In this document: piece after piece, positions 1 to 51,223 of the stretch
How the letters are laid out: every line of letters begins with the position of its first letter
How positions within the stretch are numbered: the first letter of the stretch is position 1
Source: a virus
Strand: one strand, 5' to 3'
DNA: 53,709 nucleotides
IMG/VR virus record: IMGVR_UViG_3300044999_000048
Coordinates: 1-53,709 of that record
The notes under the pieces: generated by a model
Told to the model about the DNA's origin: nothing
Seen by the model: the letters and a program-made list of their open reading frames with translations, nothing else
Database searches by the model: none
Made by a program: the position numbers and the translations under genes

Positions 1-1305
1 CTTCGCTAGTTCACGCAAAAACGCAGCACCAAGGTACTTCGAGCACTCCGCCTGGCTCTTCACAATCCGCTCGAGCGCTGAATTGTCATCCCGGTTGTCC
101 AAAATTCGCAGGAACGCCAGCAAGTCTTTGACCTCTGCGCGATTAAAAAACGAGCACGCCCCTAACACAATATAGGGAATTTCCTTCCGGAACAGCGCTT
201 CCTCGAGCAGGCACGCTTGCCGATTGGTCCGGTAAAGAACAGCAAAGTCGCCCTCGCCTTTCGCACGCCACTTAGCGATAGAGTCCGTCACCCACTCCGC
301 TTCACCGTTGTCGGTCGCAAATTCCACAAATTCCGGCATTCCTTCAGTAGGCTCTGAATGTTTGCGGAACGGAAAAATCTTCTCCAAAAACCCCGCGATC
401 AACGAAGGACAGCCCGTGATGGTTTCCTTGTAGAGGCTTACAATATGAGGCAACGACCGGTAGTTGGTTGCCAGAAAAAACTTCTGGTGCTCCGGAAAAT
501 ATTTCCCAAAGTCTAGACAGATGCGGTAGTCAGCGCCTCGCCAACTGTAGATGGCTTGGTTGCTATCACAGACCGCTAGAAAGTTATCCTGGGGAGCCGC
601 AATAGCTTTAGCCACGCCCATCTGCACTTTATCGGTGTCATGGAATTCGTCGATCATCAGGTACTCACACCGCGCCTGCTCGGCCAGGAGTACCGCGCGC
701 TTGTCGCGCAGCAGGCGCCAGGCCAGAAAAATCATGTCGTCAAAGTCTAGGATCCCCAACTTTTGTTTCTCGGCCTCGAATAACGAATAGGCCAGCGCGT
801 ACACATCATTAGGGTCCTGAGCCAACGCCTGGTCGCAATCGATATCCTCGCGCTTTTTCAGGGAAATGTACGACCGCAAAATCTTGACGTGCAGCTTGGT
901 CCCGAGCTGCTCCCGGTTGCTGGCCGTCATCCGCAGAATTCTCGACGTCGCGGCCAGATCGATCGGCGCATAGGACAGTTTGAACGGCAACTGATTGCGA
1001 TTCCGCAGAATTAGTCGATAGCCAAGGCTGTGAAACGTTGAAATAGTGGCTTTTAGATCGTCCGGCTCCATGCCAATTAGCTTGCCAACACGCACACGCA
1101 TTTCCTCAGCCGCGTTGTTGGCAAAAGTAATCGCGAGAATCGAACGTACCGGATGGCCTTCGTGGATCAACCGAGCTACGCGATGCGTTAGAAGCCTCGT
1201 TTTACCGCTGCCCGGGCCCGCAACGCAAAGAGCCGCACCTTTATCGAACAGCGCAGCCTCACGCTGGTACTGGTCCAGCCCATCGAGATTGAATGCGGCG
1301 GTCAT
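1..1305 (-). CDS. UvrD/Rep/PcrA-like superfamily 1 DNA helicase (C-terminus cut by window)
   Basis: ATP-dependent 3'-5' DNA helicase of the UvrD/Rep/PcrA type; 435 residues are visible and the C-terminal part runs off the window. I read Walker A AGPGSGKT near residue 30, motif Ia TFANNAAEEM near 66, Walker B 'YLMIDEFHD' near 217, motif III-type 'DSNQAIYSWRGA' near 250 and 'ATNYRS' near 280, in the order expected for SF1A. The ATG overlaps the TGA of the preceding gene (ATGA), so translation is probably coupled. It ends the early minus-strand operon after recombination-type genes, which suggests phage replication or repair. The family call is firm; the exact phage role is inferred. Confidence 0.93.
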   Translation of the reverse strand, partial: MTAAFNLDGLDQYQREAALFDKGAALCVAGPGSGKTRLLTHRVARLIHEGHPVRSILAITFANNAAEEMRVRVGKLIGMEPDDLKATISTFHSLGYRLILRNRNQLPFKLSYAPIDLAATSRILRMTASNREQLGTKLHVKILRSYISLKKREDIDCDQALAQDPNDVYALAYSLFEAEKQKLGILDFDDMIFLAWRLLRDKRAVLLAEQARCEYLMIDEFHDTDKVQMGVAKAIAAPQDNFLAVCDSNQAIYSWRGADYRICLDFGKYFPEHQKFFLATNYRSLPHIVSLYKETITGCPSLIAGFLEKIFPFRKHSEPTEGMPEFVEFATDNGEAEWVTDSIAKWRAKGEGDFAVLYRTNRQACLLEEALFRKEIPYIVLGACSFFNRAEVKDLLAFLRILDNRDDNSALERIVKSQAECSKYLGAAFLRELAK

Positions 1306-1883
1306 AGATCGTCTAGCGCGTCTTGCGCCTGCGACTCCAGATTTGGAGTCGCTTGCTTGATGTCCTCTTCGAGGTCAACCACCGGGCTATCCGGAACTTC
1401 GACGGTGGCTTCATTAACTTCCGGTTGCCCGTTTTTCGGCTTTCCGGCCAGCCGTTTTTCCAGTTCGTCGCCGCCCAGGTGATCAAAACCTTTTACGTCA
1501 AACCGCAGCATTCCGCTTTCATCTGGAGCAACATTCACGAGAACTTTTCCGTGCAGCCCGGCAACCTCGTTACGCCGGATCGTTGGCTTGCCAGAGGCCA
1601 GCAACTCTTCCGGATAGCCGAATTTCTTCAAAAAGTACAGGCACCAGGACTGCGCCCGCGGATTCAGGTAAATCCGGAAGTTGAATTCCGTCCCTGTATG
1701 CGGATCCGGCTGACCGTTCGGAGGATCTTCCACGATGGCGTCCAGAAGCATATAAGGCTTCGTTTCACCCTCTTTGACCGATTCTCGAAACAGGCAGTTT
1801 TTTAGATACACGGTCCAGATGTGCATCCCAACTTCTACCTGCTTTTCAGACCACTGCGGTTGAAACTCTTCACGTTCGGCCAT
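1302..1883 (-). CDS. Phage early protein, possible DUF669-like/ssDNA-binding accessory
   Basis: 193 residues. A beta-rich core at about 15-150 ('YMLLDAIVEDPP', 'FRIYLNPRAQSW', 'GKVLVNVAPDE') is followed by an acidic tail. Length, acidic tail and position beside a recombination-type gene and a helicase resemble DUF669-type or OB-fold proteins of phage recombination modules; this is inference from layout. The start has a good SD (AGGAG, 6 nt) that overlaps the TAG of the upstream gene, and the stop overlaps the helicase ATG. A copy of the dispersed palindrome lies inside the 3' end and is read as TPNLES. Confidence 0.7.
   Translation of the reverse strand: MAEREEFQPQWSEKQVEVGMHIWTVYLKNCLFRESVKEGETKPYMLLDAIVEDPPNGQPDPHTGTEFNFRIYLNPRAQSWCLYFLKKFGYPEELLASGKPTIRRNEVAGLHGKVLVNVAPDESGMLRFDVKGFDHLGGDELEKRLAGKPKNGQPEVNEATVEVPDSPVVDLEEDIKQATPNLESQAQDALDDL
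1335..1348. repeat. Dispersed palindrome copy 1 (intragenic)
   Basis: CTCCAGATTTGGAG, one mismatch to the CTCCAAATTTGGAG consensus. The flanking GCGA/TCGC extends the arms to 9 bp. It lies within the coding sequence, about 28 nt before the helicase start, so it is not an SD copy. Confidence 0.75.
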
Positions 1884-1892
1884 TTCACTCTC

Positions 1893-2222
1893 CTAAGCCG
1901 TCGGCGGCTGATCGGAAACCGTGGCGAGCAGGTCCGCGTAGGCCGTTTCTACCGCCTTAAAGTCTGCAGAAAGCCCTTCGTTGCGCACAAACGCTGTGAC
2001 CGCGTTCATCCCGGTCGGCCAAGTCATTGCTGCGACCCGTTCGAGCGCGTTCAGGGCCACGATCTTTTGCCCCTCGGGCGCGCCCTTCAGGTCTTCGACC
2101 CGCAAGATACGCTTCAGGAAGAACACGAGTTGGTCGGGCGACGATTGCACCTTCGCCGCGAGTTCCCGGGCCCAGGTCTTGAGATCTTTCTTCTGCTTGC
2201 CGTTGGTGCCGGTCGGCTCCAT
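1893..2222 (-). CDS. Hypothetical early protein; probably the distal part of the upstream frame
   Basis: 109 residues from ATG 2222, no family recognised; predicted mostly helical. The start is doubtful: no clear SD precedes it. The same frame is open back to the amber codon ending the upstream gene at 2316, and the intervening codons encode a Pro/Ala/Lys linker (PAAKKQPPKETAQPAAQAAP) that continues the linker upstream of the stop. It may therefore be the C-terminal domain of a 398-codon protein read through TAG, or a gene split by a nonsense mutation. Its own stop is TAG, merged with the SD of the next gene. Confidence 0.6.
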   Translation of the reverse strand: MEPTGTNGKQKKDLKTWARELAAKVQSSPDQLVFFLKRILRVEDLKGAPEGQKIVALNALERVAAMTWPTGMNAVTAFVRNEGLSADFKAVETAYADLLATVSDQPPTA

Positions 2223-2315
2223 GGGCGGAATATTCGCCTTGGGAGGGCCCGAGGGCGCCGCTTGCGCGGCTGGCTGGGCAGTTTCCTTGGGCGGCTGTTT
2301 CTTAGCTGCAGGAGC

Positions 2316-3089
2316 CTAGGCAGGCGGAGATGTTGCAGCTTTTGCCGGCTGCGCGGGCGCTTGGGCAGGAGCGACAGTTCTCGGCTCTTCCGCCCCGGGC
2401 TCGAGATCTTCCATATCTTGTGTGAACAGACCAGAGCTGCGTGTGGCAGAAAGAACCGCGCTGACCTTTGAGCGCTTCAAGGACATCTTCAAAATTGTAT
2501 TTTTTGAGTCGCTCATGTCAGGATTCAAGACACGGCCTATCGTTTGCTCGGTAATCCGTTTATCGCCGTCCAAAAACTTTGATCCGCAACCACCTTTTTT
2601 GGCAAAACACAGCCAACCGCCTCCGTATTCTTCCCGGCCCTTAATGATGGCTTCGGCACCACACGCCGGACATTTCCGCTTTCCTTCCCGCCAGCGATAT
2701 TTGCTTTCGTAGGAATTGCAATTTCCGAGTCCAGACGCAACAAAAATGCCGGACCCTTTTTTGGTGAGGTTGCACTTCATCGTGTAATCAAACAAGCCAC
2801 GGTCGTAGTCCTCAACTTGTTGAACGATCACGTAATCGTCGGCAAGTCCGTAAATCTCACAAAGTTTGTCCGCGCCAGGCTTGTACAAAGTCGGTTTTTG
2901 CGTTCCAGGAATCACGCCATAGTCTTCATTTTCAACAAGGTATTCCTGAACAAACTCACGAAACTCTTTCAACCGTTGCTTGGCAACTGCCAGATTCATT
3001 ACTGGAGCAATCAGGTAAGCATCGGTATCCACCATGCGCTGAAGCTGTTGTCCACCAACTTCAACGATTGCCTCTTTCGGTGTACTCAT
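2316..3089 (-). CDS. Phage recombination-module protein with internal zinc ribbon
   Basis: 257 residues. The N-terminal half carries 'GTQKPTLYKPGADKLCEIYG'. A zinc ribbon follows (CPACGAE near 138, then the C..C pair in 'WLCFAKKGGCGSKF'). The C-terminal block has the form NTxLKM..KR.KVxAVLxATxxSGLFTQDMED, a motif I remember from uncharacterised proteins of phage recombination modules. The acidic TQDMED stretch is followed by a Pro/Ala/Gln-rich linker ending in TAG, after which the frame stays open into the next gene. Strong SD (AGGAGGAGG). The leader is a pentamer repeat array. A link to strand annealing is possible but unproven. Confidence 0.72.
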   Translation of the reverse strand: MSTPKEAIVEVGGQQLQRMVDTDAYLIAPVMNLAVAKQRLKEFREFVQEYLVENEDYGVIPGTQKPTLYKPGADKLCEIYGLADDYVIVQQVEDYDRGLFDYTMKCNLTKKGSGIFVASGLGNCNSYESKYRWREGKRKCPACGAEAIIKGREEYGGGWLCFAKKGGCGSKFLDGDKRITEQTIGRVLNPDMSDSKNTILKMSLKRSKVSAVLSATRSSGLFTQDMEDLEPGAEEPRTVAPAQAPAQPAKAATSPPA

Positions 3090-3109
3090 TTCTTCCTCCT
3101 CCTATAAAT

Positions 3110-3250
3110 TAAAACCATACCTCACCAAACCTTACCGCAGCCGACCTTAGCTTGCCGCACTATGCCTTACCAAACCACACCGTGGCTTACCTTGCCACAC
3201 CTGAACTTGGCAGACCAAAGCTCACCTCACCATAGCGTGCCGCACCGAAC
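3110..3250 (-). repeat. Degenerate pentanucleotide array 1 (GGYNN), leader of the 3089 gene
   Basis: Read on the minus strand, the 140 bp between the stop of the upstream gene and the SD of the 3089 gene split without a phase break into 28 five-base units such as GGTAG, GGTTC, GGTGC and GGCAC. Positions 1-2 are almost always GG (sometimes GC, GT or AG), position 3 is usually T or C, and 4-5 are free. The units are not copies of one sequence, only of one pattern. It ends 20 bp before the start codon. Confidence 0.85.
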
Positions 3251-3251
3251 C

Positions 3252-3860
3252 CTACCGCGAAACTTCAAACCTAGTGACAGCGTAACGACCAAATGTCGGA
3301 CGAAAATCTCCAACACCGATTAATCGTCCTCCTGCCTGGATCGTCTCGTTCAGCAACGCAGGAGAAATGTATTCAGGCAGCAAAACCTGAAAATCGAAAC
3401 CCACTCTCCAGCCAGAAAGAAGCCCGGGCCGATGACGAGTAATTCCGTTGCGCTGGATCATCACGCGCCGGCGATCAACAAAATCCCATTCTTTCTTGCC
3501 GACAGAGCACAGATCGGTAAGATTTGCGATTCCGGCCTTGAACAAATCCATAGCCGACTTACGTGGCGAGCGCGGGTCTTGCTTGTATTTCGCGGCGTTG
3601 ACTACCGTCATCCGAAAATATTCGGTTGGAATCGAAAGAAATCCTCTCTCGTCTCGGTAAACGTAAGATTCAAGGTCATCTTCCTTTTTGGCCTTGGAGC
3701 CTTTCGCAGCCTTCGATTTCGCGTCAATTCCATCAACCGACCAACGATGGAAAAGAAACGCAGCCGTGCCCTCGACTTCTATGTGCGCGATGTACGGAAC
3801 TTCAATTGCGCTTGCGCCATCGTTTGAAACATCGCTCAGAATTGCCGCCTTTTGTGTCAT
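3252..3860 (-). CDS. Conserved phage early protein of unknown function
   Basis: 202 residues from the ATG at 3860, chosen because a good SD (GGAGAGG, 8 nt) precedes it; upstream in-frame codons lie in repeat array 2 and give only Trp/Cys/Gly-rich noise. Features: 'AHIEVEGTAAFLFHRWSVD' near the N-terminus, a lysine-rich insert near 55-65, 'RMTVVNAAKYKQDPRSPRK' near 95 and 'GDFRPTFGRYAVTRFEV' at the end. I recall similar proteins beside zinc-ribbon recombination genes in other phages, but no function. First gene of the early minus operon behind promoter 4068-4096. Confidence 0.72.
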   Translation of the reverse strand: MTQKAAILSDVSNDGASAIEVPYIAHIEVEGTAAFLFHRWSVDGIDAKSKAAKGSKAKKEDDLESYVYRDERGFLSIPTEYFRMTVVNAAKYKQDPRSPRKSAMDLFKAGIANLTDLCSVGKKEWDFVDRRRVMIQRNGITRHRPGLLSGWRVGFDFQVLLPEYISPALLNETIQAGGRLIGVGDFRPTFGRYAVTRFEVSR

Positions 3861-6612: not shown

Positions 6613-9600
6613 TTAGAACGGTCGTGGTGTAGGTTCTAGGCCGTATTCACCTCGTCCGCCACCGCCGATCGGTGCCGGAGGATTTGCCAACCTATACGCC
6701 GGTGAAATTTCTTTTGCCAACCGGTTCAGTTCACCTGGGATTTTCTCCATCTGGCCTTTGACCACATCTTCTCCCATCGAAAGCAAGGAAGTTGCGCCTT
6801 GTAAGACGTCCCACAGATACGGCCCGAGCGCAAATCGCGCGACGGCCGAGCGCTTGTCGCCCTTGAACCGGTCAAATGACTCGATCATGTTCGATACGAG
6901 CGACGCCCCAATCGCCATGCCGGCATCCTCGGCAACCCGGCCTAGCAACGTGAGTGGGTGGTAGGTTTCCTTCTGGCCAAGTTCCTTGGTCCGTTGCGTG
7001 CGCCCGCGCGCCAGCTCCTGCAGGTCGAGGAACAACTCACCGCCAGCCGGCGCCAGCATCAGGAACGGCACCCACGGCCGGAAATTACCGCGCATCGCTT
7101 CTTTCATTAGAAGATTGCTGAAAAATTTTCCGTTTCGGTAGACGTATGCCTTGAGCATAACGGTCGTGCGCAGGAGCGCCGCTGCGTGCTGGCCAGCTTC
7201 ATCCTTAGCCCGCAGGCGCCACATGGGCGGCAGTTCGGTCGGATCATTAGTTCCCTGCGTAGCCGCGGCCCACCGGGCCCCGGCACGTTTAACCGCTTCG
7301 TCACTCCATTTTCCATTTTGAATGGCCTCGTCAATCAGTTTGTCGGGTACACCCATCAAATCACGGGCTATATGCCGGTAGGTGTGTTGCGGCTTATCCA
7401 TCAGCTTTGGCAATGCCCACCGGGTCAGGAAATTTTCCGCTACTTTGTTGGCCATCACGCGGCTGAATTGATCAAGGCCGCTTACGCCGACAAATTTCAG
7501 GGCGCGGTCCCCGATCCGGTGGCTAACGCCGTACTCGGTGGAAATAAAATCCAGGGTACGTTCTGGCGCAATCGCGCCGGATTCAATCGCCGCGCGGCGC
7601 GCGGCTGGATAATCACTCAGAATTTGGCCAAACGACCGCGCAAACTCCGGAACCCCTACCGCGTCAAACATTCCGGACTTGATGCTGTGAAACATCATCG
7701 GGATAGCCGTGAAATTCATCTTCGTCAGCGCGACCCAGTCCGACGCGAAGGTAAGAAACGACTTCGGCCCTTCGTAGAACGGCTGGCGCATCAGCAGATC
7801 GTCAAAAATCTCGCGTACCTGGCGCCGACCAGCCTCTGGAAGTTGCACAATCTTCCCGTCCAGCACGGCGCGCTTCTGGCCAAACACCTTCGTGCGCCCA
7901 ATCGCTTCGGCAGCGCCATTTAGGTAGCGATAGACCGAGTGGAGCGTCTTTTCGTACCCTTCGATGTCGTGCTCGCGCGTGCGTTCGAGGTTTCCCGATA
8001 GCGGCACGTCCGGCAAGCGCCGGGAATCCAGGAAAGTTTCCGCCGCTACACGAGAGATCCCGCGGCGCTGCATGATGCTAGAAACGATTTCTTCACGCTT
8101 TTTGCTGCCAAACTTGAACACGTCTTCGTCGTAAATGCGCGGCATGTAGCCCGGCCGGCGGTCCTTTGGGAAATCGAAAGTATCGGTTTTCCCGGTAGCT
8201 TCGTTGAACCGCTCGAGTTGCACGCCAGCCTCTACTGCTTTGTCCTGAACATCGAAAAAAAGGTTTTGGAGTTGCTGAACCGCCTTTTCTTGCCAGGAGC
8301 CCGCCTTGACTTCTCGCTCCCCTTCTTTCATTTCCCACACTTCCGTCATGTTTTCCGGCGTGATTTTGTGTTCCTTCACCCAATCGACAAGCTGCCCCAT
8401 CCAGTTGCCGGCCAGCAGCGATCGCTGCGCGTGGTATTCCTGGATGTCGTGGTTCAGTTCGCCGCCCAGTTCCGGCATCCCAGACTTTTTAGTCACCGAA
8501 TCGATGATGTCGCGCCCACTGCGCAAGGCAAACTGCCACATCGAGACGTTTCCAGTTTTTCCAGCCTGCACGAATTCGTAGGCTTCCTTCCCGCCATGCT
8601 TCTTCATCCACTCAATTTGATCTTTGAGCACGCCATGCACCACCGGAGCGTGGTTCCCATCCGTATTGGCGATCTCATCCTCGGCCAGGGCGGCTACGCC
8701 GCTGACAAACTTCTGTTTGTCCTCTGCTTTAGGTAGGGCTTTACCCAAATCGCGCTCGATTGCCTTGGGATCCAGGAAACTGTCCAGCACGTCTTGTATT
8801 TTCTTGTCCAGCGCCGGGTCAGCCGACAAGCCAGCATCACGCCGAAACGTGTCTTTCAGCTCCTTCGACACGCGCTTCGCAGCGTCAATCGGGTCCACGC
8901 CCATTAAAAATGTGCCTTTACCAGGAGGTTTGCCCTCCATATTTGGAGGCGGAGTCAGCCGGGCGCGCACCTTCATACCCTTATTAGGGCCCGTCTGGCT
9001 CTTGGCGTCCGGGATGTCAACCTGTTTGTGTGACTTGAACACTTTCGACGTGTCCAGGAAGTCGGTAAACTCTTTGCCGGCTGCCTTGACGTCGTCGCCA
9101 TGCTCGTACTGTAGCGCTTCGTTCGCGTTAGACAGCCCTTCGGTAAGTGGAGACCTGAAATCGACGCCGTTTACGACCGCGTTGAGCGCCTCCAGGCGCG
9201 GCACGATTCGACCCACCACAAGCTTCACTTCCGGCGCGACGTTGCTTAACAGAAACGCTGCGTTCGTGTCTGACTTCGTGCCGTATCGCCACGTTCGGCC
9301 GGCACCTTGCTCAAACGCATAGCCGGACCACGGCAAGCCGTGATAGATCGAGAACCGCGGAGCGTCGCCAGCCGTGTCATGCAGGCTAAGCCCAAGCCCG
9401 CCAGCAGCGTAGGTTGTGTAGAAAACCTTTTTCTGCCCGGTCTGGAAGCCTGCAAGCTGCTTTTCGCGCGCCGAGGAGTAGCCGCCGCTGTAGTCGGCAA
9501 AGTCTTCGCCAAACGCTTCCTTAAGCGCTGGAACAAACCCTTGAATGGGCGGCAAAATCTTGGAAATAAAGCCGTTCATCGAAGCGTCTGGATCAACGAG

Positions 9601-12600
9601 CGGCTTATAGAGCGTGTTGACCTCGCTGTGCGTCTCCGAGAAAATCGGTACTTGGTAACCTGCCTTCATGGCCCGTCGCGCCATCTCGATCGTGGCCGGG
9701 ATCCGTGTTGACTCGATGTAGTGCTTCAGGTAGTTCATCTTATTCGCGGACACTACCATCATCATTCGCTTGTTGCCGCGACGCTGGTAGTACTCCCTGG
9801 CCAGCGCAAACGCGCGATCGATGTTGCGCACACCTTGAACCTGCTCCGGCGTGAGCGGCACAACAGCAAAGTGAGCGTTGAAGCCGTCGAAGTTCTTCTC
9901 TTGGTTGATAAACTGCCCGCGCTCAATCAATTGCTGGCGCAGCTTTTCGAGTTTGAATGGGTTGGTATGGCCTTGCCAGGCGCCTTCGGCGCTTCGGCTA
10001 ATCCCGAATTGCCTGACCCACTGATCAAACGGCCGGCCTTTCCACAGACCAAGTTTGGTTAGGTATTGCAGTTCGGCCGCATTCGTGAACGGCGTAGCCG
10101 ACAGGTACATCACCTTCTTGGCGTTGTTGCCCATGTCGGCTACGAGGCCGCCGCGCTTAGAGGTTTCCGACCCGCGCGCCTGTCCCGCTTCGTCGACGAC
10201 TACCAAGTCCCACGGAAATTTTTCAATTCCTTCGCGGTTGCGTGCCGTATCCATCGTGGTAGCGTACACGCCCGGTTTGGGAGGCTCAGCCTTGGCTCGC
10301 GGATCGTAGTAGTGATCGGTATCAGCGTTGACACCAAAACCTTTGGCGATGTCGACCCAGTCGTCGACCAGCTTACGGCTGGCCGTCAGGTAAAGAATGT
10401 GCTTGAACTGCTCTGGCGCGCTCTCCTGGACGTGACGAATAATCGCTGATGACAGGTAGCTCTTTCCCGTACCAGTAGGCAGGCCAAGCACAACCCCGCC
10501 AGAACCATCGAGCAACTCGGAAAGCCCATAGTCCGCAATCGCGTCTTGGCCCGGGAAAATCAGTTTGTCAGCAATATGCTGAAAAACACGCTGCGTCGGA
10601 ATTCGCGCATTTGGAGGTAAACGTGCGTCGTTGACCACTTTTTTCCACGCTTCAGTTTTCCAAGCTGGTTGCCTAGAACGTTCTGGCTGGGGCGTTAATT
10701 CGGCTGGGGCGACATTTGATAGCCCTGTAGCTCGCGCTGTACGTCCTCTTCCTGCGCCAACCTTTCCACCTGCTCCCGGAACCCCTCCTGGGGCTCCTCC
10801 GGCTCCGGGCTGGACGGTGGCGGCGCCTGGTTCATCAGCTTTTCCAGTTGGCTTAACGTCTTGCAATGGAGCAGGCGCATTAGGTAAGCCTCCCTCGGCA
10901 GCGGCTTTCTCTCCACTGGTCACCTCCCTGAAAACATTCATCTTCTCTCGAACTTTTTGATCATCGGCCCCACCACGAATCGCTGCGACCGCGCGCTCCC
11001 AGGCATGATCGGTCATCATTTTCCAAGCTTCTTCCAGGTGCGGGCGCGCCCATTCGCCAACGGTTTCAATCGTCTTCTTGGCCACATCTGCGAAACTACG
11101 AATCCCGCGCTCGACGTGGTACCCCATGACCGTGGCAATGTCTTTTAGGTCTTCGGGATCAATGCCGGCCTGCAGGCGCCCGCGGCGCTTCTTCATTCGT
11201 TCAATTGCCGCATCGGCCGCGCTTTTCGGGAAAATCGTGTTCTTGTCTTCGGGCGTTGGCGCTATCTTACCTTCCATTTCGACGTTACGGGCCCGAATTC
11301 CCTGTTCGATGTTTTTAGGCATAGTTAACGACGGTGGAATTTCACCAGGAGCAGGCCCTTGCGGGGCTACTGCCTGTGCAGGCTTACGCTGCTGGACCTC
11401 GGGCGGCACAATTTCCAGAAGCCGTTGTTTTAACTCTGCTGCGCGCTGCGCGGCCATCTGGCGCTCTTCCGGAGTGGCTTTCTCATCCCGAGCAATAGCT
11501 TCTGCTTTGGTAATTTCCGCTTGCAATGGGATTTCTTGAGATTTCTGAGATAACGGCTCTGGTGGCGCAGCCATTTTCGGCGCTTCCAGCGGCGGAGGAG
11601 GCGCTGGCACCCCCTCCGGAACCTGCGCTTCCTCCGCCAGCAGGCTTGGTCCGACCACGGCGTTCATGGCACCGCGGAGCAAGCCGGCTTTATCTGGAGC
11701 TTCACCTGCGCCGCCAAACATCGTGCCCTGGTCCTTCCGCCCAGCGCGCATGGCATCGTCGGCATAGGTATTCAAAATGTCAGACACATTGGCCGGCCGG
11801 CGCGCATTTCGGCCCAAAATCGTCAATAATTCACGCGCCGCCGGGCTGATATCCTGGCCGTACAACTTTCCCTGGCTGAGGTAGTCCGCGACCGATTGGC
11901 CTTGCTCTCTCAAGGCCGACAGCTTCCGCGCAGCCTCCACTATGTCGTCAGAGAGACGCAAGTCGTGTAAGGTGCCTTCGTCGACCAACTGATTGAGTTG
12001 CGCGAACTTCGGCGCCGCCGCGAGCATCGCTTTTGTGGCCGCGCGAATATTATTGTTTGGGTCCTCAGAGAGCTTCTCCATGAGCGCTTCCGACCCCGGG
12101 AACGCTTTAGCGAAGATAGCCGCCTGGATCCGGCGCACACCGTCCTGGTTGATTTGCCCATTCGCCATCATGAACTTCGACCGGTCGGCTGGAGAGATCA
12201 CCTCGCTAAAGAATCGCTGGATAAACCCTTGATTGCCAGCCACAAACAGGTTGCCGTCCTCCGACGGCTGCAGAATGGCCATCAGGTCCGGCGTCATAGC
12301 CTGCGAATCGGCCTTGGCCGTTTCGACTTGGCTCATCGAAGCTTCAAACGGCTCGTTCAGTTCCCTGGAAAACGCTTCGGCAGTAAGTCCAATACTTTCA
12401 AGCGGCGTACGGCGTATCCGGACCAGCACCGGTTGTCGCATTTTTGCTACAGTTTCCGAGTCCACTCCAAATTTGGAGTAATTCTGCGCGAGCCACGCCT
12501 TGTACTCATCCGCTTTCTTATCACCAATTTGGTACAGGAATTTCAAGACCATCGAGCGCATGTTGCCGCCATCGACGAACAGGTCATCACCCACCACCGG

Positions 12601-15477
12601 TGCGCCGTTATTTCCCGAGAAATTCTCGCCCAGCATGGACGGATCAAATTGGGCCCCAATGCTCAGGAATTGGTCCTTGCTAAACGCTCGGTTGCGGTTC
12701 CGCGGCTGGCGCCGGGCCGGATAGTTTGGATTCGGATTCAAATCCGAGTCGTGTGACGGCTCGATTTGCTTGGCTTCCACCACGGCATATTGGAAGTCGA
12801 CCGAACTGCCGCGCGCCGTCTTGATCGTGCCGTTACTGCCAAGCTGCCGCGGCAGGATCGGGACCGCGGGGCGGTCGCGCTCCGGATCAGGCTTGGCCTC
12901 GGGCGGCAATTTGTCGTTCAAAGCATCTTGTTGCTTCGAAAGGGCTTGAATCGTCTTGTCCGCATCGTCGACAGCCTTTTCCAGACGGCCGTAATCTTCT
13001 GGGACCGACTGTCTCAAAGCTTCCTGGACGTCGTCGCGACGTTCTTGCAGCGATCGAATCGCTTCCGCCAGCGTGGTGACGAGGTGACGCGCGTCCTCGG
13101 CCTCTTGCCGTGCCTTCCTAGCCTCTTCTGGCGTCGTTTCCAGAATATATGGCTTATCCTCCAGTTGCGCTTGCCCACGGTCACGGAATTCGTCTTCTCC
13201 TGGGGTTTTAGAGAGTTCCGCTTCTTGTCGCTGCTGGCGAGCGTACTCGTCGCCGACAATTGCGCGATCGATGCGCTGCTCGTATTTTCGTTGTTCGTTG
13301 CGTCGTCGGCGCTTGTCGCCCTTGATCGCCTCGTCGATGCGTTTTTCGAGGGCTTCTTCAGCCTTCTGGGCGCGCAGGCGCGCTTCCTCAGCATCCTTAA
13401 CCATATTCTCCAAAAGCAGCGATTGCTCGCCAGGGAGCAGGCGCGGGCCGGTCGGAGCACGGTCCACCGGCGTAGTAACACTTTCAACTGGTTTAGGTGT
13501 AGCTGTGAGTACCGGTGGTCGCTCCGTGGTCTCTGGAGGCTTGGGAACACCACCCTCACCCAGGCGCGCTTGCGGCGTAGGAGCCAATCCTTGACGTATC
13601 TCCGGGCCCGGGAGCGGTGCTGGAGGCGCGGGGCGCGCAGCGAGTTCTCCAGGAGGTTGACGCACAATGGCAGTAGCTCGAGCGCGCCGATCCTCGTACT
13701 GCTGTACAACAGGATTGTTTTTAATGAATTCTTGACGAATGTTCTCGATTTCTTGACGCCTAGCAAGCATCTCTCGATCATAATCAGCTCGGAGATCGGC
13801 TAGTCTTTGCTGCTGCTGGTGCGTTACCTCATCTTCGATCAGCCGTTGCGCCTCGACTTCTTGGGCAATCATCTGGTGCCAAGCGGGCTCAACCTCTTCA
13901 ATTGTCTTGCGAGCCTCCTGCTGAGCGTTGAAAAGTTGCTCGTTAAACGCTTTGTTTTGTTCCGCAAGTTTCTTGGCCTGTTCCTCCGGATATCCCATGG
14001 CGGCAACGTCGCCGGGCTCGCCCATGACGTACTTCGCGCGCGAAAGTAGGGACTTGGCCTCGTCGACCCATCCGCGGCGCAGGAGTCCGTCCACTAACTC
14101 TGAGTAGGCTTTGATGTCGGCTTCGTTGGCGCCATAAGACTCCTTCGTGCGCGCATTGGCCCACTGACGGAAGGCCGGGTCAGAGAATTTTTCAGTTTCC
14201 TCGACAGGAACTTTCTGAAGAGCTTCTAAATCCTTTGGATTTTTTGTCTTTTCCCAGTCGGTTGTAACGCCATCGCGCGGTTTTTCGTGGATGCCAAATT
14301 GGTGCTCGAGATAAGCGGTCTGCAAAGCCTTGATTTGCGGCCCAACGCGCTCTTCGGGAGCAGCCTTTGTACCCTTTGGGACTTCTGTTGGGAATTTTTT
14401 GCCCGTAAACTTCTCGTACGCCGTTTTGATGGCTGCGAGGTCACGGTTGTTTTCAGCCTTTTGCAAGTCTTCGAGAAACGGCGCGCGGCTCTTGTTGGCT
14501 TTCAGAACTTGTTCTGACACCTCGGCGCGCTGCGCTTGTGGCAGATCCACCCAATCACGCTTGTAGGTTTTCTTCGAAACTGCGTCCAGGGTGTTTAGTG
14601 TTCCCATCGTCCGAATTTTGTGAATCGAAGAAAGCGTTCCCAAAGCACTGAAAGCGCCGTCGATGCCAGCTCCAAGCGTATCAACCGCCGCACCTTCGTA
14701 ATCTCCAGATTTGAACTTGCCCCACGCGCTTTTTGCACCCTCGTAGGCGCCGTACCCCTGCATGGCGGCAAAGCCGACGTCAGCGCCGGTGCGAAACATC
14801 CCGGCCGCACCTTTTAGGCCGGCTACGCCGCCCGTTTCTCCGCTCATCAGCAACACCAAATTGCGCGGATCAAGAGCTAAGTGTTGCACCGTGTTCATCA
14901 CCTTATCCGCTAAAGCGTTGGCAATCCTTTGCGCGGGAGTGTAGGGATGTCGACGTGCTTCTTCTTCGAGGGAAACCTGCTGGCCTTTATCCCGGTCCAT
15001 GTACTGGTAGGCTTCGAGGCGGTCTTGTTCTTGGTATTTTTTCTTGGCTGCGTCCGCCTTGTCGATGAACTCATTGATCTTGTCGAACGGCTCTACCAGG
15101 TAGTGATTGGCTCGCGTGAGCCACCACGACTGCGCTCCCATGTGCGGATCTTCATGTTTTGGCAACTCCATTTCTGGATGCCGCACGTAGAACGATTTGT
15201 CCGTCTCGCTCATCCAGGAAGGAACCTGCCGAGCCGGTTCAGGGATGGAAACGCGCTGCCCGGGCCCAAGCGTCGGCTTAGGCGGTGGCGCTGTCATCTG
15301 TGCGCGCTTGGTGGTCAGGAAGGAAGAGACTTGGCCTTTAAGGTTTTTGGGGGACGCAGGTGTGGGCGGTTTCGCGGCACGTTCCGGCACGGATGGCGGG
15401 GTAGGGGCAAGAGACGCACGGCGGGTAGTTAAAAAACTGTGGAGCTGCGTTTGAAGATCGTTGCTTTGGTCCGCCAT
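6613..15477 (-). CDS. Giant polyvalent (internal virion-type) protein with SF2 helicase domain
   Basis: 2,954 residues from ATG 15477. The N-terminal part is Pro-rich with a motif seen twice ('QLHSFLTTRRA' and 'QVSSFLTTKRA'); a long charged coiled coil covers about 550-830; Pro/Ala linkers separate blocks. An SF2 helicase lies at about 1640-2130: Walker A 'GLPTGTGKS' (about 1665), DEAG-type Walker B 'LVVVDEAGQ' (about 1762), motif III 'MYLSATPF' and motif VI 'EQGAGRTWRYG' (about 2060). The C-terminal third has helical and hydrophobic segments ('LVSNMIESF', 'FLMLAPAGG'). This fits the large polyvalent proteins of phages, thought to be ejected with DNA. A motif VI inside an internal virion protein suggests DNA remodelling early after entry. 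Confidence 0.85.
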   Translation of the reverse strand: MADQSNDLQTQLHSFLTTRRASLAPTPPSVPERAAKPPTPASPKNLKGQVSSFLTTKRAQMTAPPPKPTLGPGQRVSIPEPARQVPSWMSETDKSFYVRHPEMELPKHEDPHMGAQSWWLTRANHYLVEPFDKINEFIDKADAAKKKYQEQDRLEAYQYMDRDKGQQVSLEEEARRHPYTPAQRIANALADKVMNTVQHLALDPRNLVLLMSGETGGVAGLKGAAGMFRTGADVGFAAMQGYGAYEGAKSAWGKFKSGDYEGAAVDTLGAGIDGAFSALGTLSSIHKIRTMGTLNTLDAVSKKTYKRDWVDLPQAQRAEVSEQVLKANKSRAPFLEDLQKAENNRDLAAIKTAYEKFTGKKFPTEVPKGTKAAPEERVGPQIKALQTAYLEHQFGIHEKPRDGVTTDWEKTKNPKDLEALQKVPVEETEKFSDPAFRQWANARTKESYGANEADIKAYSELVDGLLRRGWVDEAKSLLSRAKYVMGEPGDVAAMGYPEEQAKKLAEQNKAFNEQLFNAQQEARKTIEEVEPAWHQMIAQEVEAQRLIEDEVTHQQQQRLADLRADYDREMLARRQEIENIRQEFIKNNPVVQQYEDRRARATAIVRQPPGELAARPAPPAPLPGPEIRQGLAPTPQARLGEGGVPKPPETTERPPVLTATPKPVESVTTPVDRAPTGPRLLPGEQSLLLENMVKDAEEARLRAQKAEEALEKRIDEAIKGDKRRRRNEQRKYEQRIDRAIVGDEYARQQRQEAELSKTPGEDEFRDRGQAQLEDKPYILETTPEEARKARQEAEDARHLVTTLAEAIRSLQERRDDVQEALRQSVPEDYGRLEKAVDDADKTIQALSKQQDALNDKLPPEAKPDPERDRPAVPILPRQLGSNGTIKTARGSSVDFQYAVVEAKQIEPSHDSDLNPNPNYPARRQPRNRNRAFSKDQFLSIGAQFDPSMLGENFSGNNGAPVVGDDLFVDGGNMRSMVLKFLYQIGDKKADEYKAWLAQNYSKFGVDSETVAKMRQPVLVRIRRTPLESIGLTAEAFSRELNEPFEASMSQVETAKADSQAMTPDLMAILQPSEDGNLFVAGNQGFIQRFFSEVISPADRSKFMMANGQINQDGVRRIQAAIFAKAFPGSEALMEKLSEDPNNNIRAATKAMLAAAPKFAQLNQLVDEGTLHDLRLSDDIVEAARKLSALREQGQSVADYLSQGKLYGQDISPAARELLTILGRNARRPANVSDILNTYADDAMRAGRKDQGTMFGGAGEAPDKAGLLRGAMNAVVGPSLLAEEAQVPEGVPAPPPPLEAPKMAAPPEPLSQKSQEIPLQAEITKAEAIARDEKATPEERQMAAQRAAELKQRLLEIVPPEVQQRKPAQAVAPQGPAPGEIPPSLTMPKNIEQGIRARNVEMEGKIAPTPEDKNTIFPKSAADAAIERMKKRRGRLQAGIDPEDLKDIATVMGYHVERGIRSFADVAKKTIETVGEWARPHLEEAWKMMTDHAWERAVAAIRGGADDQKVREKMNVFREVTSGEKAAAEGGLPNAPAPLQDVKPTGKADEPGAATVQPGAGGAPGGVPGAGGKVGAGRGRTARATGLSNVAPAELTPQPERSRQPAWKTEAWKKVVNDARLPPNARIPTQRVFQHIADKLIFPGQDAIADYGLSELLDGSGGVVLGLPTGTGKSYLSSAIIRHVQESAPEQFKHILYLTASRKLVDDWVDIAKGFGVNADTDHYYDPRAKAEPPKPGVYATTMDTARNREGIEKFPWDLVVVDEAGQARGSETSKRGGLVADMGNNAKKVMYLSATPFTNAAELQYLTKLGLWKGRPFDQWVRQFGISRSAEGAWQGHTNPFKLEKLRQQLIERGQFINQEKNFDGFNAHFAVVPLTPEQVQGVRNIDRAFALAREYYQRRGNKRMMMVVSANKMNYLKHYIESTRIPATIEMARRAMKAGYQVPIFSETHSEVNTLYKPLVDPDASMNGFISKILPPIQGFVPALKEAFGEDFADYSGGYSSAREKQLAGFQTGQKKVFYTTYAAGGLGLSLHDTAGDAPRFSIYHGLPWSGYAFEQGAGRTWRYGTKSDTNAAFLLSNVAPEVKLVVGRIVPRLEALNAVVNGVDFRSPLTEGLSNANEALQYEHGDDVKAAGKEFTDFLDTSKVFKSHKQVDIPDAKSQTGPNKGMKVRARLTPPPNMEGKPPGKGTFLMGVDPIDAAKRVSKELKDTFRRDAGLSADPALDKKIQDVLDSFLDPKAIERDLGKALPKAEDKQKFVSGVAALAEDEIANTDGNHAPVVHGVLKDQIEWMKKHGGKEAYEFVQAGKTGNVSMWQFALRSGRDIIDSVTKKSGMPELGGELNHDIQEYHAQRSLLAGNWMGQLVDWVKEHKITPENMTEVWEMKEGEREVKAGSWQEKAVQQLQNLFFDVQDKAVEAGVQLERFNEATGKTDTFDFPKDRRPGYMPRIYDEDVFKFGSKKREEIVSSIMQRRGISRVAAETFLDSRRLPDVPLSGNLERTREHDIEGYEKTLHSVYRYLNGAAEAIGRTKVFGQKRAVLDGKIVQLPEAGRRQVREIFDDLLMRQPFYEGPKSFLTFASDWVALTKMNFTAIPMMFHSIKSGMFDAVGVPEFARSFGQILSDYPAARRAAIESGAIAPERTLDFISTEYGVSHRIGDRALKFVGVSGLDQFSRVMANKVAENFLTRWALPKLMDKPQHTYRHIARDLMGVPDKLIDEAIQNGKWSDEAVKRAGARWAAATQGTNDPTELPPMWRLRAKDEAGQHAAALLRTTVMLKAYVYRNGKFFSNLLMKEAMRGNFRPWVPFLMLAPAGGELFLDLQELARGRTQRTKELGQKETYHPLTLLGRVAEDAGMAIGASLVSNMIESFDRFKGDKRSAVARFALGPYLWDVLQGATSLLSMGEDVVKGQMEKIPGELNRLAKEISPAYRLANPPAPIGGGGRGEYGLEPTPRPF
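8935..8948. repeat. Dispersed palindrome copy 4 (intragenic)
   Basis: CTCCATATTTGGAG with one extra pair outside, inside the giant gene; read as PPNMEG. One mismatch to consensus. Confidence 0.7.
12465..12478. repeat. Dispersed palindrome copy 5 (intragenic)
   Basis: Perfect CTCCAAATTTGGAG plus an outer A/T pair, inside the giant gene; read as YSKFGV. Confidence 0.8.
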
Positions 15478-15480
15478 CAA

Positions 15481-32094: not shown

Positions 32095-32604
32095 CTATCC
32101 TGTGATCCCGGTGAGCCTGAACATCAGCCGGGGCGCACGGTTAAGCAAGTTGCCGCCAAACAAATATTGACCCGCTACGTCGTCGGTGTTCTGAGCCTCT
32201 TTCCAGCCCGTAAAGCCAAACTGGTACTTGCGCTCAGTCGTAACGTAGAGGTCGATATAGTTGGTGTTAAGCCCGTAAACTGTCTGGGCCGGAATGTACA
32301 TGTCAACGGTCAGGCTGCTCCCGTTAAATCGCAAAACCTGGAAGCCGAGTTTCCCAACGTCGCTGGATTCCTCGTTGAACCGCTGTTGTGGCTGCATCTT
32401 GTTCCAGATGACGTTCCAAGTCCCCTGGTCGGTGCAGAGCAGATCGGGCCGCTCCGGGCCGAACCAGCAGGAACCGTAAGCCGTCTGGAGTTGCGACAGC
32501 GCGAGGTTGCCGATAGTGCCGAGGAAATATCCGTTGATTCCAACGTTGGCGCCCGAGGCGATGTCGGAACGGGTGATGCCGCCGTAGGTTGTGAAATTGG
32601 TCAG
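32095..32604 (-). CDS. Major capsid protein, exon 2
   Basis: 169 codons and stop after removal of the intron. Begins 'LTNFTTYGGITRSDIASG' and continues 'LLCTDQGTWNVIWNKMQPQQ' and 'GKLGFQVLRFNGSSLTVDMY', the C-terminal half of an HK97-type capsid protein of the podovirus kind. Only its last 100 residues have an ATG of their own, without an SD, so it needs exon 1. Joined product: 321 residues, a normal capsid size. Confidence 0.85.
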   Translation of the reverse strand: MTNFTTYGGITRSDIASGANVGINGYFLGTIGNLALSQLQTAYGSCWFGPERPDLLCTDQGTWNVIWNKMQPQQRFNEESSDVGKLGFQVLRFNGSSLTVDMYIPAQTVYGLNTNYIDLYVTTERKYQFGFTGWKEAQNTDDVAGQYLFGGNLLNRAPRLMFRLTGITG

Positions 32605-33423
32605 CTTTGTTACTCGCAGCTTACGCTGCGGGGCTGTACATTTCTGACAGCCTCTTCATGTCGCCATGAAGCTCGGACTTTATCTTTACGATGTCCATAG
32701 GGACTCTCGTATCTGACGTGAAGTCTCTGAGGATTCGACTGCGAATAAGATCTTCAAAATGTTCTTCGAGTTTGCAAGTTTGCTTGTGGCACGGGGCACA
32801 AAGCGTCGCGCCATTTTCCACATCATAGCGAAGCCCTGGGAAATCAGAGAACCGCTTAATGTGGTGAGCGTGCAATTTCTTAAGGTGACGAAGGCAGAGC
32901 ACGCACGTAAAATGGTCCCGTTGATAAACTGCAAGACGCCAATCAGCATACTGTTGAGATGCCTTAGCAACATCCCGTTCACTCGAAATGCCACCCTTCC
33001 ATTTGTTGTTGTTTGAACCTGTGCGGGTAGCACCGTAGCATTCTCTGCTACAAAACTTTCTGAAGTCGGCCTGATAGTTTCTGCCAACAAAAAACAAAGA
33101 ACCACATTGCTGACAGACTTTCTCAATCTTTCCACCCTTCCATGAGCGATGTCTTTCTCCAACTTGTCCACCTGGAAGCGCAGAAGACCACCATGTCTCA
33201 TAGCATTTCCTAGAGCAGTAAACTGTGGGACGCACGCGATCTTGCCACGCAGCCCGGTATACTGGCTCTCCACATACTGAACATGGTTTGTATCGGCCAT
33301 TCTTTCGCATTCGTCTTTCCTGCGGATTGTCCGCGACTAGAGGTTTTTACGCTAACAGCAAGCGTACCCTAGTATACCCGGAGTTTCCCGCATATAGTCA
33401 GATTTTTCGACAGCAACATGTTT
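32605..33423 (-). ncRNA. Group I intron (819 nt) in the capsid gene
   Basis: Core elements are readable on the minus strand. P1: exon end CGACGGU pairs with GCUGUCG (33414-33408), with the expected U-G at the 5' splice site. P4: UGCGGG (element P, 33380-33396) pairs with UCCGCA (element Q, about 33316-33332). P7: GACU of element R (32715-32732, CAGAGACUUCAC) pairs with AGUC of element S (32671-32689, AAGAUAAAGUCC). A GNRA-capped hairpin (CGCAGC-GUAA-GCUGCG) lies near the 3' end. The 3' site after AAAG at 32605 restores the capsid frame; it is the less certain boundary. Confidence 0.88.
32621..33310 (-). CDS. HNH homing endonuclease inside the intron
   Basis: 229 residues. Two Cys4 zinc motifs (CSVCGEP...YCSRKC and CQQCGSL...FCSREC), then an HNH nuclease: 'CVLCLRHLKKLHAHHIKRFS ... 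NGATLCAPCHKQ'. The start codon lies just after element Q and the last 40 codons run through core elements R and S, with TAA in the GNRA-capped hairpin, so gene and ribozyme share sequence. It presumably cuts intronless capsid alleles to spread the intron. Confidence 0.9.
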   Translation of the reverse strand: MRKNGRYKPCSVCGEPVYRAAWQDRVRPTVYCSRKCYETWWSSALPGGQVGERHRSWKGGKIEKVCQQCGSLFFVGRNYQADFRKFCSRECYGATRTGSNNNKWKGGISSERDVAKASQQYADWRLAVYQRDHFTCVLCLRHLKKLHAHHIKRFSDFPGLRYDVENGATLCAPCHKQTCKLEEHFEDLIRSRILRDFTSDTRVPMDIVKIKSELHGDMKRLSEMYSPAA

Positions 33424-33879
33424 ACCGTCGTCGACCGAAGCTTGAAAACCATCCAAGTTAATGATCGAACTGTTTGTCCCTTGGCCATCCAGATACATAT
33501 CAGTTGCCAAGAGTTCCGCCATACGACCTGCTGCGTTCGCCATCTTTGATTCAATCAAAGACATCGCAGCCTCCGGACCCCTATTAAGAATGTGGTCCGT
33601 TCCGTAAAGCGTGATGTTCACATAGTATTGCTTGATGAGCACTTCAAGGCTTGTGTCCGTCTGAACGTACGTTACGTCGAACGCCTGCCCGCGAGCAAAC
33701 GCGCCGCCTTTCAGCCGGGCGTACATCAACGGCTGAACGATGGAACGTCCGCCCTCAAACTTCATTCGATTACGTGTGCGCAGCCTCGTCAGAACTGGAC
33801 TCACCTTGTAGACGCTGTCGACCAGGGCGGGAACGATAAAGCGATTCGTTTTACCCGTGAGGTCGTCGTAGGTCAACAT
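33424..33879 (-). CDS. Major capsid protein, exon 1
   Basis: 152 codons from ATG 33879. 'MLTYDDLTGKTNRFIVPALV', 'GRSIVQPLMYARLKGGAFAR', 'NVITLYGTD'-type N-terminal arm and 'ESKMANAAGRMAELLATDMY' helix, ending '...FQASVDDG'. If unspliced, translation runs 23 codons into the intron to a stop, giving a truncated 175-residue protein. Follows the scaffold gene as in most podoviruses. Confidence 0.88.
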
Positions 33880-50881: not shown

Positions 50882-50955
50882 TGGTAGCGGGGCTCAGAAT
50901 TGAACTGAGGTCTGTGGCTTATGAGGCCACCGGATTACCGCTTTCCTACCCCGCG
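50882..50955 (-). tRNA. tRNA-Met(CAT), initiator-like acceptor end
   Basis: Cloverleaf with encoded CCA: acceptor CGCGGGG/CCCCGCT, anticodon stem GTGGC/GCCAC with loop CTCATAA, T arm CTCAG-TTCAATT-CTGAG. Position 1 is C opposite U72, i.e. unpaired as in initiator tRNAs, although the anticodon stem lacks the three G-C pairs. D stem has only three good pairs. Confidence 0.8.
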
Positions 50956-51147: not shown

Positions 51148-51223
51148 TGGTGTGCCCGGTGGGACTTGAACCCACAACACCTTGCTTAAAAGGCAAGTGC
51201 GCTGCCAATTGCGCCACGAGCAC
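51148..51223 (-). tRNA. tRNA-Lys(TTT)
   Basis: Full cloverleaf: acceptor GTGCTCG/CGGGCAC, D stem GCGC/GCGC, anticodon stem CTTGC/GCAAG with loop CTTTTAA, T arm GTGGG-TTCAAGT-CCCAC, encoded CCA. Confidence 0.95.

Follow-up and report, generated by a model that had tools for sequence, protein, structure and literature searches.

In an uncultured tailed phage from soil, represented by an IMG/VR virus record, the gene for the major capsid protein (MCP) is interrupted by an 822-nt segment, which we consider, with a probability of about 0.95, to be a mobile group I intron containing an ORF for an HNH endonuclease. Splicing of this element would yield an intact capsid protein of 320 residues, and the HNH enzyme would promote its homing. 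The anatomy of the insert, the reading frame restored by its removal and the empty sites in related genes were observed directly. A reading of the DNA letters without database searches (the sequence-only reading) had already placed a group I intron with an HNH endonuclease in the capsid gene, and this is supported by the core helices, the PF01844 domain and the assignment of the joined protein to PHROG 9953.

The interrupted gene, the RNA core and the HNH ORF

The window, i.e. the whole 53,709-nt stretch of DNA that was analyzed, contains the MCP gene on the minus strand (33879..32095), with portal and large terminase genes further along the same strand. In the unspliced sequence the frame of the 5′ exon extends 23 residues into the insert and then reaches a stop codon (ORF 33879..33352), while the MCP frame resumes downstream. 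Both the reading frame and homology bear out the previously proposed break after residue 152 (position 33424). The joined protein matches the major head protein family PHROG 9953 (E 1.5e-40), and its closest annotated relatives from cultured phages, at about 27-29% identity, are those of Myxococcus phages Mx8 and Mx9, Stenotrophomonas phage BUCT555 and a Bradyrhizobium phage. The coordinates of the identified features are summarized in the table.

Elsewhere in the window, a single ORF of 2955 residues (6613-15480, minus strand) contains regions resembling the DarB antirestriction and DNA helicase families (PHROG 10089, 62, 16), as well as phage families of unknown function; it possibly encodes a giant virion-borne protein. 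Two tRNA genes were detected with Rfam (50885-50955 and 51151-51223, minus strand).

Table. Features of the interrupted MCP gene and of the predicted intron (window coordinates)
Feature	Position	Strand	Details	Evidence
MCP 5′ exon	33424..33879	-	residues 1-152; ends ..GAC GAC GGU, U at 5′ splice site	ORF, homology, PHROG 9953
MCP 3′ exon	32095..32601	-	residues 153-320 and stop; starts ACC AAU UUC	ORF, homology, spliced alignment
Group I intron	32602..33423	-	822 nt; omega-G at 32602 is the last nt	spliced alignment, intronless relatives, helices, RF00028
HNH endonuclease ORF	32621..33310	-	229 aa; starts in P6, ends near intron 3′ end	PF01844, E 5.5e-7, residues 136-177
P1	33408..33430	-	exon CGACGGU (33430-33424) / internal guide GCUGUCG (33414-33408), U.G at cut	sequence, shuffles
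P3, 5′ strand	33397..33403	-	AUCUGAC, pairs with GUCAGAU 32717-32711, 7/7	
P4 around P5	33321..33392	-	P4 33392-33387 / 33326-33321; P5 33382-33379 / 33333-33330	
P6, P6a, P6b	32731..33320	-	P6 33320-33318 / 32733-32731; P6a 33315-33313 / 32739-32737; P6b 33309-33306 / 32743-32740; ORF fills P6 loop	
P7	32676..32725	-	GACU 32725-32722 / AGUC 32679-32676; inside: P3 3′ strand 32717-32711, P8 32710-32707 / 32691-32688	
P9, P9.1, P9.2 hairpins	32616..32671	-	P9 with GCGA tetraloop, P9.2 with GUAA tetraloop	
P9.0 3′ strand and omega-G	32602..32604	-	CU pairs with AG 32673-32672; omega-G 32602	

The insert can form the full series of pairings P1, P3, P4, P5, P6/P6a/P6b, P7, P8, P9, P9.1, P9.2 and P9.0, each of them fully paired, with a guanosine-binding P7 and the helix order P3-P4-P5-P6-P7-P3′-P8-P7′ of a group I core. 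P1, P4 (UGCGGG/UCCGCA) and P7 lie exactly where they had been placed from the letters. A pairing that could constitute P10 was recognized by eye (A-U, one mismatch, C-G, A-U) and is weak; P10 is not universal in group I introns. The layout of P1 with P3, P4, P7 and P8 occurred in 1 of 6000 dinucleotide shuffles, a rate that is indicative, as the descriptor was composed with the real structure in view. It supersedes two earlier descriptors that did not include P1 and P8, of which the loose one was uninformative (260 of 300 shuffles) and the stricter one was found in 31 of 1000.

The covariance-model search named as a check in the sequence-only reading gave a match to the group I model of Rfam (RF00028; 21.9 bits, with an E-value of 0.0093 on 2.2 kb and 5e-5 in a search of the phage's own genome), but one that lies under the gathering score of 50. 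In this alignment the R and S elements are correctly positioned and the 5′ half, which is separated from the rest by the ORF, is misplaced. The intron DNA had no match among cultured phages, and since a close relative of the window intron was not found, there is no covariation for this intron alone.

The predicted product of the ORF contains an HNH domain, placed after two Cys-rich stretches, with the catalytic motif LHAHHIKRF..N..LCAPCH. As had been proposed, the 3′ part of the ORF overlaps the R and S elements; it spans P7, P3′, P8 and P9. The best of the matches listed for this protein among cultured phages are 28-40% identical, and its relatives in viral contigs are distant (32-46%). Two of the contigs encoding such relatives were searched with Rfam and no intron was found in them.

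Splice boundaries and competing explanations

A homology search yielded 65 MCP relatives, which were used to define the boundaries of the element. They span the insertion site without any insert, typically reading ..DDG-TNF/Y.., so the comparison with intronless relatives suggested in the sequence-only reading revealed the expected empty site, but moved the 3′ boundary by 3 nt. That reading had assumed an insert of 819 bp (33423..32605), giving in frame a protein of 321 residues. The frame is indeed restored, but the MCP coding sequence resumes 822 bp after the break, and the product has 320 aa.

The difference amounts to one codon. An intron ending at 32605 would also terminate with a G (CAAAG) and would keep the frame, but the junction would retain an additional CTG (Leu), which is absent from the relatives: all of those spanning the site, except the distant L065 and L066, are one residue shorter than the 321-aa join. 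A purpose-written spliced aligner, using a profile of 18 relatives from which the window had been left out, placed the intron at 33423..32602, whether or not a U before the intron and a G at its end were demanded, and the resulting 320-aa MCP aligns to these 18 relatives with a gap-free junction. On these two grounds, the missing residue and the spliced alignment, we place the 3′ splice site 3 nt beyond the proposed one. P9.0 agrees with this position, since its AG/CU pairing immediately precedes the G at 32602. The shorter version therefore has only a small chance of being correct. With the 822-nt version, a U ends the 5′ exon and forms the U.G pair in P1, a G ends the intron although neither was imposed, and removal of the element restores the MCP as found in intronless relatives. 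The predicted junction is GTCGACGACGGT joined to ACCAATTTCAC or, in short form, GGU joined to ACC.

It is very improbable that no splicing takes place at all, the insert being either an assembly error or a free-standing HNH gene that has lodged in a dead phage's MCP gene. That the window is a single metagenomic contig would speak for such an explanation; against it, the insert lies exactly at a codon junction between two intact exons, carries a complete group I core including a P1 that pairs with the exon, and has comparable counterparts in the MCP genes of relatives from different samples. An intein with an HNH domain, which the length of the insert (a multiple of three) and the presence of the domain might suggest, has a negligible probability: stop codons in the exon frame already refute it, no intein domain was found in the Pfam search, and an RNA core is present.

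For the mobile group I intron, a course of events may be proposed by analogy with other members of the family. The transcript would fold into the P3-P9 core, with the guanosine site in P7, and P1 would present the 5′ splice site. Two guanosine-initiated transesterifications would then excise the intron and join ..GACGACGGU to ACCAAUUUC.., producing the intact 320-residue MCP. The HNH protein encoded within the P6 loop would act near codon 152/153 on capsid alleles that lack the intron, brought in by co-infecting relatives, and repair of the cut allele would copy the intron into it.

Introns in related capsid genes

We also surveyed 90 complete MCP genes, including that of the window, obtained by scans in which the MCP alignment and other members served as queries (48 distinct at 97%). 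The spliced aligner identified introns in 9 of the 90 (8 once near-copies are removed), at 11 different sites, and none in the remaining complete genes, one artefact being discounted. The artefact concerns L058, which was rejected as intron-bearing: it contains a small deletion and a frameshift around residues 257-271 (2484-2489), and represents a broken gene or a sequencing error. In the numbering of the L002 profile (window numbering is higher by one), the single-intron sites lie between codons 6 and 7 (L029), in codon 13 (L026), codon 22 (common to L041 and L061) and codon 84 (L110), between codons 151 and 152 (window) and in codon 284 (L044/L059).

The introns of the related genes, at ten sites other than that of the window, are group I-like, have a U before the 5′ splice site and a G at the intron end, and restore the same MCP; they count in favor of the group I reading of the window insert. 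With the splice rule switched off, all seven single-intron genes tested (the window and six others) kept these T and G boundaries. In most of the sister introns P3 is spelled differently yet remains paired (for example CCCTTTC/GAAAGGG, ACGATGCC/GGCATCGT, TGACTGG/CCAGTCA, TGTTCGG/CCGAACA); the automatic search was unsuccessful for L061 and returned doubtful pairs for L110 and the fourth intron of L096. By eye, the P7 strands of L026 (2865-2990) appear to be GACT and AGCC, with an A.C mismatch in the core; this mismatch apparently recurs in L061, together with a compensating change at another pair.

HNH was found in the window intron only; where recognizable, the ORFs of the sister introns are of the LAGLIDADG type. 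The Pfam match exceeds the cut-off for L026, L029, L041, L044 and the first and fifth introns of L096, and is below the threshold for L110. Rfam detected the introns of the window and L029, the third intron of L096 and part of that of L044. It found none in L026, L041, L061 and L110, which were identified by their exact splice boundaries, P3/P7 pairing and endonuclease ORFs. In the clade, RF00028 reports at most one intron per record, but it overlooks the majority of the MCP introns identified in this survey.

The most extensively interrupted gene is that of L096 (IMGVR_UViG_3300036761_003996, 303-3714), which reads as six exons and five group I-like introns of 678, 181, 215, 281 and 1089 nt, located in codons 15 and 45, between codons 67 and 68 and codons 76 and 77, and in codon 90. 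Their removal restores a full-length MCP. The two LAGLIDADG ORFs are in the outermost introns; the short introns 2-4 contain no long ORF. Without the splice rule the T and G boundaries are kept in two of the five introns and move by 2 to 4 nt in the other three, the exact ends of which therefore depend on the rule.

On the MCP tree the intron label requires 7 changes, at least 5 of them forced by well-supported branches, which points to frequent gains and losses. The introns of L041 (1948-3032) and L061 (2202-3008) have similar 5′ ends and occupy the same codon in MCPs placed apart on the tree, which suggests that homing has taken place from one lineage to another. The L061 intron, with little sequence after P7 and an ORF without any Pfam match, may be degenerating. 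It is likely that group I introns have repeatedly targeted the MCP gene in this uncultured phage clade: 8 distinct genes would hold at least 12 introns at 11 sites, with an HNH ORF, a LAGLIDADG ORF or no ORF, and in one of these genes a virion could form only if all five introns were spliced.

Significance and comparison with known systems

As few phage products are usually expressed as strongly as the capsid protein, each interruption of its gene must be spliced efficiently. A capsid gene with eleven intron sites, in one case interrupted five-fold, constitutes a natural test of the self-splicing load that is tolerable in an essential late gene. The same MCP family may be used to determine whether intron endonucleases serve competition among co-infecting phages. 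In practical terms, some MCPs of this clade will be overlooked or predicted in truncated form by gene callers.

Among phages, group I introns that encode homing endonucleases have been described in the DNA polymerase, nrd, td and terL genes of T4, SPO1, Bastille and Twort (PMC2988022, PMC11878797); these share with the window a group I core and an intron-encoded homing endonuclease, but reside in different host genes. The putative five introns of L096 would exceed the two or three per phage gene that were the most encountered in the open-access literature searched, namely in a survey of Bastillevirinae (PMC11878797, with Twort in its references). In the Jug phages, essential genes including terL are split by several group I introns, whose splicing is supported by metatranscriptomes; these are huge gut phages with many introns throughout the genome (PMC12363816), against at most one per record detected with RF00028 in the clade of the window.

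The closest parallel is mycobacteriophage LittleE (Cluster J), whose MCP gene contains an endonuclease-bearing intron, described as most likely group I, with in vivo splicing demonstrated by RT-PCR and protein sequencing (PMC3706429). Both introns are approximately 820 nt long and interrupt a siphovirus MCP gene, with a U before the 5′ site, a G at the intron end and an endonuclease ORF. The phages are unrelated, however, and the LittleE ORF is described as LAGLIDADG-like and encoded on the opposite strand, whereas that of the window is of the HNH type, on the same strand, and located in P6 with an overlap of P7-P9. In addition, the LittleE report refers to a capsid gene in lactococcal phage Tuc2009 (PMC3706429). 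The earlier remark that introns in phage capsid genes are uncommon compared with those in replication genes has to be amended in view of the LittleE precedent and of the 9 interrupted genes among 90, a proportion that makes such introns common in this MCP family. That a phage capsid gene can carry an intron with an endonuclease is already known; what is less ordinary is the invasion of the MCP genes of relatives at many sites.
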